Below the pieces are notes generated by a model, which was not told where the DNA came from, ran no database searches, and was given only the letters and a program-made list of their open reading frames with translations. Shown piece by piece: positions 15,804 through 18,793 of a DNA stretch of 34,039 nucleotides. The first letter of the stretch is position 1. Each line of letters begins with the position of its first letter. The translations under genes and the position numbers were made by a program. The DNA comes from Gammaproteobacteria bacterium. GTDB taxonomy: Bacteria > Pseudomonadota > Gammaproteobacteria > PIVX01. The stretch lies in contig PIVX01000018.1 of assembly GCA_003353785.1 (NCBI GenBank), forward strand, positions 1-34,039, given 5' to 3'.

Positions 15804-16814
15804 TCATAAGGTTGCTTTTAATTTTCTTAAACTATTAGACAATTTTATACTGCTATCTATTGGATCATCTGCTGCCCAGACTGAATTAAAACATGCAATC
15901 ATGTTAAGGTTATGTTTGTGCAGTAGATTTATGTTGTTGTGATTTATCCCTCCAATAGCGCATACAGGTATATTAACGGCTTCAGCAATATTTTTTAGAG
16001 TATCTAGGGTCATGGGGGTAGTATTCTTTTTAGTGTCTGTATGAAAAACGCACCCTGCAGAAATATAATTTGCTCCAGCTATTTGTGCCTTAATAGCTTC
16101 AGCTACATTATGGCAACTTATACCAATGATGAATTTTTCTGAAGATAGTTCTCGTGCTATATTTAACGGTAAATCTGATTGTCCTAAATGAACACCATCG
16201 GCAATAGCTAAAGCAATTTCTATATGGTCATTTATTATTAATATAACCTCTCTGTGGATTAATTTTTTAAGGCAGGTTATTTCCTCCAGCAAACGTTTTT
16301 TGTTTCTATTTTTAGATCTTATCTGACATATTGAAATATTAGAGTTATTTATGACATTAGAGATCTGCTCAATAGAGTTAACTTCTAGATCACAAATTAA
16401 GTATAATCCGGATAATTTATTACAATTAAGAAAATTATTAATAGCATCGATTATTTCTTGATGTATCTGATAAGATCTAAATCTTATTTGTTTATATTGC
16501 TTACTAGATATTTCTTCTAATACTCTAGAAGCTTCTTGCATTCTTATGCTATTTGCATGTGCTAAGTCTAGTAGTGAATGGTGTATATTATCTTCTTTAA
16601 GGCGAACTCCTCCAAGATCTTCATTAGAGGAGCGACATATAACTGAGAGTATCAATTCATGTCTTAGTGTCCGGATCTTGATAAATAATTCTTGATCTCT
16701 CAATATGAAGCGAGCTAGATCTTCTAATACTCTTGCTCCTTCTTTAAATCTATTAATATTTGCATCAATAATATAGCGTTTTCTAGGGAATATATTGCTG
16801 TTTCTAAAGCTCAT
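15804..16814 (-). CDS. thiE: ThiD2-ThiE fusion: HMP-P kinase and thiamin phosphate synthase
   Basis: Two domains. Residues 1 to about 130 match the ThiD2 domain (RYIIDANINRFKEGARVLED, LRHEL, SRVLEE), a monofunctional kinase that turns HMP-P into HMP-PP and does not resemble ThiD. Residues about 135-336 are ThiE, which joins HMP-PP and thiazole phosphate to thiamin phosphate: CQIRSK, INDHIEIALAIADGVHLGQ, IGISCHN, AGCVFHTDTKKNTTP and AIGGI are all present. The fusion is known in other bacteria. It is the last gene of the operon, 32 nt after THI4. No Shine-Dalgarno sequence is obvious before ATG 16814. Confidence 0.93.
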   Translation of the reverse strand: MSFRNSNIFPRKRYIIDANINRFKEGARVLEDLARFILRDQELFIKIRTLRHELILSVICRSSNEDLGGVRLKEDNIHHSLLDLAHANSIRMQEASRVLEEISSKQYKQIRFRSYQIHQEIIDAINNFLNCNKLSGLYLICDLEVNSIEQISNVINNSNISICQIRSKNRNKKRLLEEITCLKKLIHREVILIINDHIEIALAIADGVHLGQSDLPLNIARELSSEKFIIGISCHNVAEAIKAQIAGANYISAGCVFHTDTKKNTTPMTLDTLKNIAEAVNIPVCAIGGINHNNINLLHKHNLNMIACFNSVWAADDPIDSSIKLSNSLRKLKATL

Positions 16815-16846
16815 ATTAATAATGTAAAGGAAGTTGTCTATATTTT

Positions 16847-17629
16847 CTAAGCATTATTTTTATCCAGTATCTCAATTGCTACTGTAGCTGCTTGTTCCCC
16901 AGATAGAAGCATTCCTCCAAAAGTAGGCCCCATTCGTGGCAGACCAAATTTTTCAGAGACAGCCATCCCTGCAACAATAAGATTAGGAAAAATTTCTTTT
17001 GTATGAGCAACTATAGATTTCTCCGAATTTTCTATCCAGAGAGGTCCCATTCCTTGAGTATCTAGAAGATTCCTTTTATTTAATAGACGGCATATTGCTG
17101 CACTATGGCCAGTGGCATCTATAGCTAATTTAGATTCTATAATTATTGGATCAAGACATGTGATTAATTTAGGTAGTGTTGTAACGGCAGTCCAGTTAAT
17201 GACTAATCCAGTTAATTCTTTATTTTTAATCATCACATCCTCAATAATTGTCATATTTAAAAATTTTACCCCAGCATCACATGCTCCTTTTATTAGACCA
17301 GAAGCAAAATCAGGAGAGTCTGCAACAAATAAGCCTGGTTCTATCTCTTTATATGGTATATCAAGTTCTTGCAAAAATTTTTCAGCTGGAGATCTTAATG
17401 TTATCTTATTCATAAGATATCCACCTATCCACATACCTCCACCTAAAAAATTATTACGTTCAACTATTGTGACTTTATAATTTTTTTTTGCAAGGAGTCT
17501 ACCTGCCACTAAACCAGCAGGTCCTGCTCCTGCAATAACTATATCTGATTCAATAGCTTCATATAAATGCTTATGATATTCAGTAATAATTGCACGGCTA
17601 ATATTTTTTTCTGCTATTTTTGCAAACAT
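16847..17629 (-). CDS. thi4: THI4-type thiazole synthase with a suicide-type cysteine
   Basis: Makes the thiazole half of thiamin (ADP-thiazole) from NAD, glycine and sulfur. A Rossmann GAGPAG is at 34-39, followed by IVERNNFLGGGMWIGG, the family's binding region. The C-terminal RMGPTFGGMLLSG is conserved. The residue that decides the chemistry is Cys158 in TCLDP: the same place is Cys205 in yeast (CMDP), whose sulfur is consumed in one turnover, and His in many archaeal catalytic enzymes (HVDP). This protein is thus predicted to be single-turnover. At 260 residues it is about as long as the archaeal forms. Its start overlaps the end of THI5 by 16 nt, which suggests translational coupling. 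Confidence 0.92.
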   Translation of the reverse strand: MFAKIAEKNISRAIITEYHKHLYEAIESDIVIAGAGPAGLVAGRLLAKKNYKVTIVERNNFLGGGMWIGGYLMNKITLRSPAEKFLQELDIPYKEIEPGLFVADSPDFASGLIKGACDAGVKFLNMTIIEDVMIKNKELTGLVINWTAVTTLPKLITCLDPIIIESKLAIDATGHSAAICRLLNKRNLLDTQGMGPLWIENSEKSIVAHTKEIFPNLIVAGMAVSEKFGLPRMGPTFGGMLLSGEQAATVAIEILDKNNA

Positions 17630-18570
17630 AACTTGTTCCTCTCAGTTTTATTTAAACTAACTTTATTATCAATTAATAAACCTGGGTCTGGTATAAAATT
17701 ATCACTAAAACAGTCTTTATAGTTATGGTTTTTATTAACTATTCCAAGTTGTGTAGAATACTTCCCAACCTTTTCCCAATCTCGTTCAATATTTTTAAGA
17801 TCACGAGAAAAAAATGGCAAAACATGAAAGAAAATTTTATTATATAGAGCATTATTTAATTTAGGCTTTAATATAGCAAGATACTCAAAAGCTTGTTCAG
17901 GATTCTCTCTAGTAAATAAAGCTCCTAGATAACTTGCTTGCATGAAATTTTTAAGTAAGTTTGGTTCTTTATTTATTAATTTTTCGTGAGCTATAAACAT
18001 GATTGAACAAAAGCAGCAACAGCCCAAATTAGCTAGGTGATCTATTCTTAAAAAATTAGTCGGTTCATTTTTTTCTTCAACTTCTAATAGTTGGAAACAA
18101 GATAAACCAATAGCCGCATCAACTTCTTGATTTATAATAGCATTAGCTGCCTCCATACCTACTCTAATAGTTTGGTATTCATTTTTACTTATACCAGCGT
18201 TTGTGGCTATATTATCAATCATGATCTTGCCAAATTCTCCAATATAACCTATACGTTTACCTTTAATATCTTGGATAGACTTTATTTTATTTCTTGCTAG
18301 TGAAATCAGTCCTGTAGGGGGCTCATCTAATAGTGTTCCAATCGATTTGATAGGGTAGTTTCTACTACGGGCAGCAAAGCAATGAACCATTGCTTTTAAA
18401 CCTATAGGGATATGGTTATTACCAATAGTTATGGTTACATCGCTAGGACTTATAGGTTCAAGTAATATTAAATTAATATCTACCTCTTGATAGAACCCTA
18501 GTTCTTTAGCGACAAGTATTGGAATATGATATGGATTTAAGTACCAATTTAATAAAAATGGTAAGTTCAT
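17614..18570 (-). CDS. thi5: THI5/NMT1-type HMP-P synthase, yeast-like
   Basis: Makes the pyrimidine half of thiamin (HMP-P) from pyridoxal phosphate and an active-site histidine of the protein itself. It matches yeast Thi5 closely: NWYLNPYHIPI, EPISPSDVT, GLKAMVH with Lys59 (PLP lysine) and His63 (the donated histidine), GYIGEFGKI, and the hallmark LGCCCFC at 182-188. It has no signal peptide, unlike the periplasmic ThiY proteins of the same fold, so a transport role is unlikely. A clear AGGAG (18577-18581) precedes ATG 18570. It is the first gene after a TPP riboswitch. A Thi5 homologue is known in Legionella. Confidence 0.94.
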   Translation of the reverse strand: MNLPFLLNWYLNPYHIPILVAKELGFYQEVDINLILLEPISPSDVTITIGNNHIPIGLKAMVHCFAARSRNYPIKSIGTLLDEPPTGLISLARNKIKSIQDIKGKRIGYIGEFGKIMIDNIATNAGISKNEYQTIRVGMEAANAIINQEVDAAIGLSCFQLLEVEEKNEPTNFLRIDHLANLGCCCFCSIMFIAHEKLINKEPNLLKNFMQASYLGALFTRENPEQAFEYLAILKPKLNNALYNKIFFHVLPFFSRDLKNIERDWEKVGKYSTQLGIVNKNHNYKDCFSDNFIPDPGLLIDNKVSLNKTERNKLCLQK

Positions 18571-18577
18571 AATTATC

Positions 18578-18608
18578 TCCTAATTTGTATATAAGCATAA
18601 AACTAGGA
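18578..18608 (-). promoter_or_regulatory. Possible Shine-Dalgarno-sequestering stem of the TPP riboswitch
   Basis: On the minus strand TCCTAGTTT (18600-18608) can pair over 9 bp, with one G-U, with AAATTAGGA (18578-18586), which contains most of the thi5 ribosome binding site. The loop is 13 nt. This fits the translational off-state used by Gram-negative TPP riboswitches. The alternative structure was not worked out. Confidence 0.45.
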
Positions 18609-18654
18609 TAAGAGACGCAGGCATAGCATAGCTTGATAGAGCAGTGCTTTGACA

Positions 18655-18738
18655 ATGACATCCCTTCGCTAGCATTATCTAGTTCAGGTTCAACAGGTAA
18701 TCTCAGCCTCTGCATTTAGCATCAGCACCCTGTGCCAT
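18655..18738 (-). ncRNA. TPP (THI-box) riboswitch aptamer
   Basis: The minus strand shows the THI-box order: P1 strand ATGGCA (18733-18738), GGGTGCT, CTGAGATTACC, TTGAACCTGA, GATAATG, CGAAGGGA, and P1 closing strand TGTCAT (18655-18660). Both halves of the conserved core, CTGAGA and CGAAGG, are perfect. It lies 84 nt before thi5 and would turn off the operon when thiamin pyrophosphate is plentiful. A minus-strand reading frame passes through it (ending at 18506) but is not a gene. Confidence 0.95.
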
Positions 18739-18763
18739 ATTTTTTGTAACCCTATCATAGAGA

Positions 18764-18793
18764 TTTATAGAAAGCAAATATTTTTTCTGGCAA
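18764..18793 (-). promoter_or_regulatory. Putative promoter of the thiamin operon
   Basis: On the minus strand TTGCCA (18788-18793) and TATAAA (18764-18769) are 18 bp apart. The predicted start is about 20 nt before the riboswitch aptamer. Confidence 0.5.

Follow-up and report, generated by a model that had tools for sequence, protein, structure and literature searches.

Can a bacterium make vitamin B1 by the route known from yeast? In yeast, THI5 and THI4 are separate genes, and their products each act once and are then spent. Here, predicted counterparts of both lie side by side in a gammaproteobacterial stretch of 34,039 nt, which was analysed as a whole and is referred to as the window. 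Because both yeast precursor enzymes were matched and our searches for their usual bacterial counterparts gave no match, the bacterium probably makes thiamin the yeast way; it likely uses up one copy each of two proteins per molecule. We hold it to be very likely, judging from sequence comparison, that this riboswitch-headed operon would make thiamin phosphate through THI5, THI4, and a ThiD2-ThiE fusion, with THI5 at the place that ThiC takes in some other THI4 loci.

Table 1 Features of the thiamin locus (positions in the window)
Feature	Position	Strand	Evidence
TPP riboswitch aptamer (THI box), operon leader	18644..18742	-	Rfam RF00059
THI5-type HMP-P synthase (predicted), 318 aa	17614..18570	-	Pfam NMT1, yeast THI5 match
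Cys-type THI4 thiazole synthase (predicted), 260 aa	16847..17629	-	TIGR00292, aligned C158
ThiD2-ThiE fusion, 336 aa; domains predicted to act as HMP-P kinase and thiamin phosphate synthase	15804..16814	-	Pfam
Predicted hairpin over most of AGGAG (18581-18577) before the THI5 start	18578..18608	-	RNA fold
Nudix hydrolase gene, divergent	18928..19494	+	PF00293, 38.2 bits

All four elements are present on the minus strand in the order TPP riboswitch, THI5, THI4, and ThiD2-ThiE (Table 1). The riboswitch scored 62 bits (gathering score 54.3) and spans model positions 1-105 of 105. The 16-base overlap between THI5 and THI4 and the 32-base gap before the fusion gene fit one operon. The hairpin predicted at the THI5 ribosome-binding site (-8.2 kcal/mol; z = -1.25) is a possible, if weak, translational expression platform, graded in this way because 21 of 200 shuffles folded equally well or better. 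No terminator-like site was found between positions 15500 and 19100 (shuffle mean 1.3). The fold of the 205-base riboswitch leader was discarded as evidence, being no better than that of shuffled sequences (z = -0.21; 82 of 200 as good).

THI5 matched the Pfam NMT1/THI5 profile with 196.6 bits and aligned to the solved structures of yeast (chain 4h6d; E = 5.8e-74) and Candida THI5. Its K59 and H63 correspond to yeast Lys62 and His66, and residues 184-188 form the CCCFC motif, which is important for THI5 and also visible in the yeast chain. Both the K59 and the H63 columns are kept in all 124 bacterial and all 120 fungal THI5 rows, and the motif is kept in 124/124 bacterial and 116/120 fungal rows. 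THI4 reached 241.3 bits with Pfam Thi4 and 249.3 with TIGR00292 (cut-off 148.3). Plant and archaeal THI4 structures were aligned to it, and its C158 falls on the sulfur-donor cysteine of the Arabidopsis protein (1rp0). This column holds Cys in 121/121 rows of the listed THI4 relatives and Ala in 9 of 79 genome loci (80 fetched minus L009); two His-type chains fall in a gap of the alignment used for the count. The PDB chains of yeast and Neurospora THI4 carry Ser there, which we take to be how a spent or changed cysteine is recorded.

The third gene exceeded the curated cut-offs for ThiD2 (76.4 bits versus 23.5) and TMP-TENI (164.7 versus 27), as well as for TIGR00693 (158.7 versus 145.1), and is the sole TMP-TENI match in the genome. 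The full-length NCBIfam equivalog NF002727 stayed below its own cut-off (248.7 versus 335); we describe the protein by its predicted domain architecture, with ThiD2 named by profile, and claim no equivalog status. These matches bear out the three identities given in the initial annotation, as the spacing and the riboswitch score do for its single minus-strand operon. A Nudix gene starts 185 bases from the riboswitch and is, by its position, a speculative candidate for an ADP-thiazole hydrolase. No relative of it was found in 87 fetched loci (80 THI4 loci and 7 other stretches; tblastn, E 1e-8), so its link to thiamin is one of position, and it was dropped as a member of a THI5-THI4 cassette and kept as a lead.

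Genome-wide profile searches for ThiC, ThiG, ThiL, and ThiD in the 3.06-Mb assembly (812 contigs, 93.8% complete) gave no match for the first three and two ThiD-family matches below the cut-off (20.5 and 19.8 versus 27). In 14 control genomes, ThiC, ThiG, and ThiL were matched in 13, 14, and 14 cases, with scores over the cut-off in 13, 13, and 9, respectively. Given the completeness and contig number of the assembly, the absence of the three enzymes is strong but not proof. Loss of ThiC by itself is not unusual: a match was missing in 19 of 56 genomes, our own included. Thiamin pyrophosphokinase (TPK) was found (TIGR01378, 125.9 versus 76.4), and TPK without a ThiL match makes the pathway end more yeast-like; in this 93.8% complete assembly, the predicted pathway is probably finished as in yeast. 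The initial annotation had described the operon as doing without ThiC, ThiG, and ThiD and had named thiL as a gene to look for and a complete thiC-thiG pathway elsewhere as the case against it; its description withstood the search of this assembly.

Among 369 sampled genomes of the class Gammaproteobacteria, THI5 was found in five and THI4 in two, in agreement with the initial view that having both together is unusual. The arrangement TPP riboswitch-THI5-THI4 was read in three genomes, namely that of the window, one taken as Candidatus Berkiella cookevillensis, and an alphaproteobacterial MAG. A further 16 pairs were deduced from THI5 and THI4 matches on equally long contigs, not read directly, and two candidates were left out as their contigs (1027 and 1699 bases) are too short to hold both genes whole. 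THI5 and THI4 distances over 17 pairs correlated with r = 0.73, a value that none of 5000 permutations reached. The pairing is thus rare but recurrent. Plasmids or viruses as its vehicle were rejected: at E 1e-30, no THI5 was found in 72,556 plasmid records, a viral scan suited to close relatives found none either, and THI4 gave two plasmid hits (37-41% identity).

Several other explanations of the operon were weighed. The THI5-like protein could be the ThiY-like binding protein of a pyrimidine-precursor transporter, in which case HMP would be salvaged and only the thiazole half made de novo. Pfam NMT1 also includes substrate-binding proteins, relatives are often labelled 'ABC transporter substrate-binding protein' by their sources, SsuA_fam matches the window protein weakly (48.9 versus a cut-off of 163.5), and the ThiY-type chain 3ix1 matches it at E = 9.3e-17. 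The yeast THI5 match is far stronger, however, and its alignment begins at residue 3, which leaves no N-terminal extension for a secretion signal. K59, H63, and CCCFC moreover persist in every bacterial row. With no room for a signal and neither a permease nor an ATPase gene in the operon, we rejected a ThiY-type binding protein and regard salvage as very improbable. For the other half, THI4 might be catalytic with sulfide instead of a single-turnover cysteine donor. Catalytic non-Cys prokaryotic THI4s are described in the available text of PMC8454699, and the loci with Ala at the donor column point the same way; C158 and the invariant Cys of the listed relatives argue against it, as does the Cys-type THI4 of Haloferax, which requires its cysteine for thiamin synthesis (PMC4215014, available part). 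A sulfide-fed THI4 is therefore unlikely in our view.

The gap left by 812 contigs and incomplete coverage could also hide an ordinary ThiC/ThiG pathway, with the operon as an extra or decaying copy. Against this, the operon frames are intact and their residues kept, and ThiC was also unmatched in both of the other pair-carrying genomes. One of these is 98% complete in 2 contigs and likewise without a ThiG match; in the other (G369), a single partial ThiG match exceeds the cut-off (24.8 versus 23), in a frame that looks nitronate-monooxygenase-like by eye. We accord such a hidden pathway very little probability. Recent acquisition from a eukaryotic host would suit two enzymes studied best in fungi and plants, and it would also suit Berkiella, one of the three genomes with the pair, which lives as an obligate intracellular bacterium according to the accessible part of PMC9803151. 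Yet a fully supported split in the tree divides fungal from bacterial THI5 rows, and window THI5 is 39% identical to fungal proteins on average (41% at most) versus 48-51% to Legionella-type and Berkiella proteins. THI4 shares 35-38% with three eukaryotic chains versus up to 59% with prokaryotic proteins from beyond the operon clade. In the THI4 tree, where eukaryote placement is unsure because long branches meet, it groups with those of prokaryotes. The operon also has the same GC content as the surrounding window. A recent host origin is extremely unlikely on these grounds, and the term 'eukaryote-like' from the initial annotation holds for the predicted chemistry but not for ancestry, given where THI5 and THI4 fall.

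In the yeast-type pathway that we favor, THI5 would convert PLP and its own His63, with iron and oxygen, to HMP-P, which ThiD2 would turn into HMP-PP. THI4 would combine NAD and glycine with sulfur from its own Cys158 into ADP-thiazole, and some hydrolase would release thiazole phosphate. ThiE would couple both halves to TMP, some phosphatase would yield thiamin, and TPK would produce TPP, which would then turn the operon off. The THI5 and THI4 chemistry used here follows the available parts of PMC10848271 and PMC8454699. By the latter, Cys-type THI4 takes its sulfur from the protein's own cysteine, a source to be added to the PLP, histidine, NAD, and glycine that the initial annotation had listed as substrates which a host cell might provide. 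Single turnover of the bacterial proteins is likely by analogy with yeast, and each thiamin would then cost one THI5 and one THI4, 578 residues in all. A broader scenario is tentative, and we lean against it: bacteria may possess a complete double-suicide pathway on a mobile THI5-THI4 cassette in two proteobacterial classes, including an amoeba-dwelling intracellular lineage, where THI5, which uses oxygen, replaced the radical enzyme ThiC in a THI4 operon, each thiamin destroys one copy of both proteins, and the Nudix protein is the ADP-thiazole hydrolase of the window's lineage.

Among known systems, the Legionella thi operon (lpp1522-1527) likewise has a TPP riboswitch followed by an NMT1/THI5-like protein first, but with a predicted terminator after the riboswitch (both from the available text of PMC5338858), while none was found in the window operon. 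Window THI5 is 48-52% identical to those of three Legionella-type genomes. Unlike the window, one such operon (G181) lacks THI4 and continues, by Pfam scan, with a DAO-family oxidase (taken as ThiO), ThiG, ThiD-ThiE, and ThiF. The Legionella THI5-like protein Lpg1565 is reportedly active. Yeast shares THI5 and THI4 with their catalytic residues, TPK, and the lack of a ThiL match in the window genome; its genes lie apart, whereas here one riboswitch-headed operon joins them to ThiD2-ThiE and shows no trace of a recent eukaryotic origin. Haloferax volcanii also needs a Cys-type prokaryotic THI4 for thiamin (PMC4215014, accessible sections) but makes its pyrimidine with ThiC and has a proposed ThiL, in place of THI5 and TPK. 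The Berkiella genome has the TPP riboswitch, THI5, and a THI4 71% identical to that of the window, but places ThiE and ThiD in a second riboswitch-headed unit. The available passages of its genome paper state no more than that genes for both moieties, thiazole and pyrimidine, had been identified, and the term THI5 is absent from the paper (PMC9803151). Proteobacteria bacterium BJ13 combines a TPP riboswitch with a Cys-type THI4 (59% identical), with ThiC in the position held by THI5 in the window operon. The literature, in the portions available, describes a THI5-like gene in Legionella and a Cys-type THI4 in an archaeon but not their pairing.

If the proposed pathway is correct, this costly single-use route is not a eukaryotic oddity, as both genes occur behind a riboswitch, with no ThiC or ThiG match, in what look like two classes of proteobacteria. 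With such genomes, the origin of THI5 could be studied in bacteria, as could the reason for which a cell gives up a radical iron-sulfur enzyme in favor of one that works a single time, with oxygen or intracellular life as conceivable selection. Many THI5 relatives bear a transporter-type name in their source annotation, and genomes could for this reason be misjudged as incapable of making thiamin.

Elsewhere in the genome, TPK lies beside a PnuC-family gene, whose protein scored 65.2 against a cut-off of 42.45 for the nicotinamide riboside transporter PnuC. Both follow a second TPP-like element, which scored just below the gathering score (53.5 versus 54.3; E = 1.3e-9), and the place of the PnuC-family gene before TPK suggests that its product may take up thiamin.

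The initial annotation had claimed an operon comprising a TPP riboswitch, THI5, THI4 and a ThiD2-ThiE fusion, and all four elements were recovered on the minus strand in this order. The overlap of THI5 with THI4 and the gap before the fusion correspond to operon-like spacing, and no terminator-like sites were found across 15500-19100. Since 21 of 200 shuffles fold as well as or better than the hairpin predicted in the leader, translational control of THI5 through this element is a guess.

Features of the thiamin operon and of neighboring genes, with one gene from the second thiamin locus
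Feature	Position	Strand	Remark
TPP riboswitch	18742-18644	minus	62 bits vs gathering score 54.3
Predicted hairpin	18608-18578		over most of the THI5 ribosome-binding site
THI5	18570-17614	minus	second element of the operon, after the riboswitch
THI4	17629-16847	minus	overlaps THI5 by 16 bases
ThiD2-ThiE fusion	16814-15804	minus	32 bases beyond THI4
Nudix hydrolase gene	18928-19494	plus	divergent from the operon, 185 bases off the riboswitch
Beta-domain protein	19806-21674	plus
Beta-domain protein (second locus, L098)	8888-11140	minus
MFS transporter	21840-23063	minus
Symporter-family transporter	24457-25791	plus
Lysine/asparagine-rich frame	328-1143	plus

The window THI5 matched yeast THI5 at 5.8e-74, against 9.3e-17 for the ThiY-type binding protein 3ix1. 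Yeast Lys62, reported to hold PLP, and the consumed His66 (PMC10848271) line up with K59 and H63 of the window protein. Both residues and the CCCFC motif were each kept in 124 of 124 bacterial THI5 rows (120 listed of 612 matches, window included, plus four genomes). THI4 passed the curated family cut-off, with C158 aligned to the Arabidopsis THI4 cysteine. This column holds Cys in 121/121 THI4 rows of relatives among the matches listed (120 of 7712, window included, plus Berkiella); in other genome loci it is Cys in 70/79 and Ala in 9/79. Among three eukaryotic chains, Arabidopsis has Cys and the yeast and Neurospora PDB sequences have Ser, while two His-type THI4 chains fall in an alignment gap. 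Because Cys-type THI4 is already on record from prokaryotes (PMC4215014; PMC8454699), the cysteine is not new by itself. The ThiD2 and ThiE domains of the fusion both exceeded their cut-offs; the fusion did not reach the full-length model NF002727.

By homology, THI5 would use PLP, a histidine of its own, iron and oxygen to produce HMP-P, ThiD2 would convert this to HMP-PP, THI4 would form ADP-thiazole out of NAD, glycine and its own sulfur, and ThiE would couple the two halves, with TPK predicted to perform the final step and TPP to close the riboswitch. If THI5 and THI4 are both single-turnover, each thiamin would cost 578 residues. ADP-thiazole hydrolysis has been attributed to a Nudix-type enzyme yet to be found (PMC4215014); a search of 87 fetched loci gave no relative of the Nudix gene divergent from the operon.

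The rest of the genome (whole assembly: 3,064,585 bases, 812 contigs, 93.8% complete) was searched for thiC, thiG, thiL and thiD. ThiC, ThiG and ThiL had no match in this assembly, two ThiD-family matches both lay under the cut-off, and a complete thiC-thiG pathway elsewhere, named at the outset as evidence against the proposed route, was not found. The single TMP-TENI match is the fusion itself. ThiC loss alone is common in the sample: among 56 genomes of the class (the window's own and 55 relatives, none closer), 37 had a ThiC match and 19 had none. A second TPP-like element (53.5 bits, under the 54.3 gathering score; E 1.3e-9) sits upstream of a PnuC-family transporter gene and TPK. Given these genes and the unmatched ThiL, the pathway likely ends as it does in yeast, with dephosphorylation of TMP ahead of pyrophosphorylation. 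By its score the transporter clears the cut-off of the nicotinamide riboside transporter PnuC; from gene position only, we infer that it takes up thiamin.

The operon type is intact and recurrent. THI5 and THI4 together in one bacterial operon had been called unusual, in agreement with their distribution: in a sample of 369 genomes from the class, THI5 (E 1e-50 or better) occurred in five, including the window's own, and THI4 (E 1e-30 or better) in two, the window's own and one taken to be Candidatus Berkiella cookevillensis. In Berkiella the genes are adjacent (TPP riboswitch-THI5-THI4), and another TPP riboswitch precedes ThiE and ThiD. The remaining three THI5 genomes of this sample carry a TPP riboswitch before THI5, have no THI4 match and group among Legionella-type rows in the THI5 tree; in the only one Pfam-scanned (G181), the operon encodes THI5, a DAO-family oxidase, ThiG, ThiD-ThiE and ThiF. 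A Legionella NMT1/THI5-like gene has been located behind a TPP riboswitch (PMC5338858). Locus L009, part of a MAG recorded as Alphaproteobacteria bacterium, reads TPP riboswitch-THI5-THI4-ThiE, and THI4 at 1e-70 was confined to this genome among 385 of its class. ThiC had no match in any of the three THI5-THI4 genomes, nor ThiG in Berkiella; the MAG has one partial ThiG match over the cut-off (24.8 vs 23), nitronate-monooxygenase-like by eye, and one below. The nearest named proteins among the matches listed belong to a Legionellales bacterium (THI5 73%, THI4 84%); on this ground, and since Berkiella is a member, the class sampled around the window's genome is taken as Gammaproteobacteria. The enzymes are known and their functions here predicted; bacterial THI5 and THI4 together were not found described in the titles and abstract openings searched, most subscription papers being beyond reach. 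The Berkiella genome paper reports genes for both thiamin moieties and does not use the term THI5 (PMC9803151).

Twenty of 120 listed THI5 rows lie on contigs equal in size to those of 119 THI4 rows; a chance control with shifted contig sizes gave a mean of 0.97 matches (maximum 3). Two matches on contigs too short for both genes were dropped, leaving 18. Beyond the window and L009, this yields 16 further pairs, deduced from equal contig size and not read directly. For 16 of the 18 together with the Berkiella pair, 17 in all, THI5 and THI4 distances correlated with r 0.73, a value reached in 0 of 5000 permutations, which is expected of co-inherited genes and does not itself show shared function. 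In the best 80 of 227 THI4 loci of named genomes, many with flanks cut by contig ends, the fetched flank contained ThiC in 23 and THI5 in one (L009). Locus L011 (3348-5771) of the MAG Proteobacteria bacterium BJ13 is arranged TPP riboswitch-ThiC-THI4, as expected ahead of a ThiC-to-THI5 swap, and we infer that THI5 took over the place of ThiC beside THI4.

A quick THI5 tree of 89 rows (67 of 120 listed bacterial, 18 of 120 listed fungal, four genomes), with no outside family as root, separated fungal and bacterial sides with full support. Seventeen of 19 linked rows, meaning those paired with THI4 in one genome, fell within one 29-row clade (SH-aLRT 99). The linked rows P0072 and P0108 grouped with Legionella-type sequences, and the pairing may therefore have had more than one origin; the size-matched pairs P0072/P0169 and P0108/P0183 combine Legionella-type THI5 with THI4 outside the main clade. 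In the THI4 tree (48 rows), 10 of 12 linked rows lie inside a supported 13-row clade and the other two join L011 beside it. The 19-row group that holds all of these is itself weakly supported (89/56); its neighbors are 24 rows from other bacteria and archaea, and the eukaryotes lie outside, under a long-branch warning. Identity of the window THI4 is 72% with the alphaproteobacterial protein and 71-72% with that of Berkiella, suggesting transfer between proteobacterial classes. No plasmid carrier of THI5 was found at E 1e-30 in 72,556 plasmid records, and no viral carrier in a scan of the viral collection that catches close relatives only.

Near the start of the window, a 272-residue frame rich in lysine and asparagine has no Pfam match. 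A large inverse-autotransporter beta-domain protein is encoded no more than a few kilobases from each thiamin locus; the C-terminal part of the window copy resembles, by eye and without a confirming Pfam match, an Ulp-kind cysteine peptidase. Also encoded near the operon are two transporters, one of the sodium:neurotransmitter symporter family and one of the MFS type.
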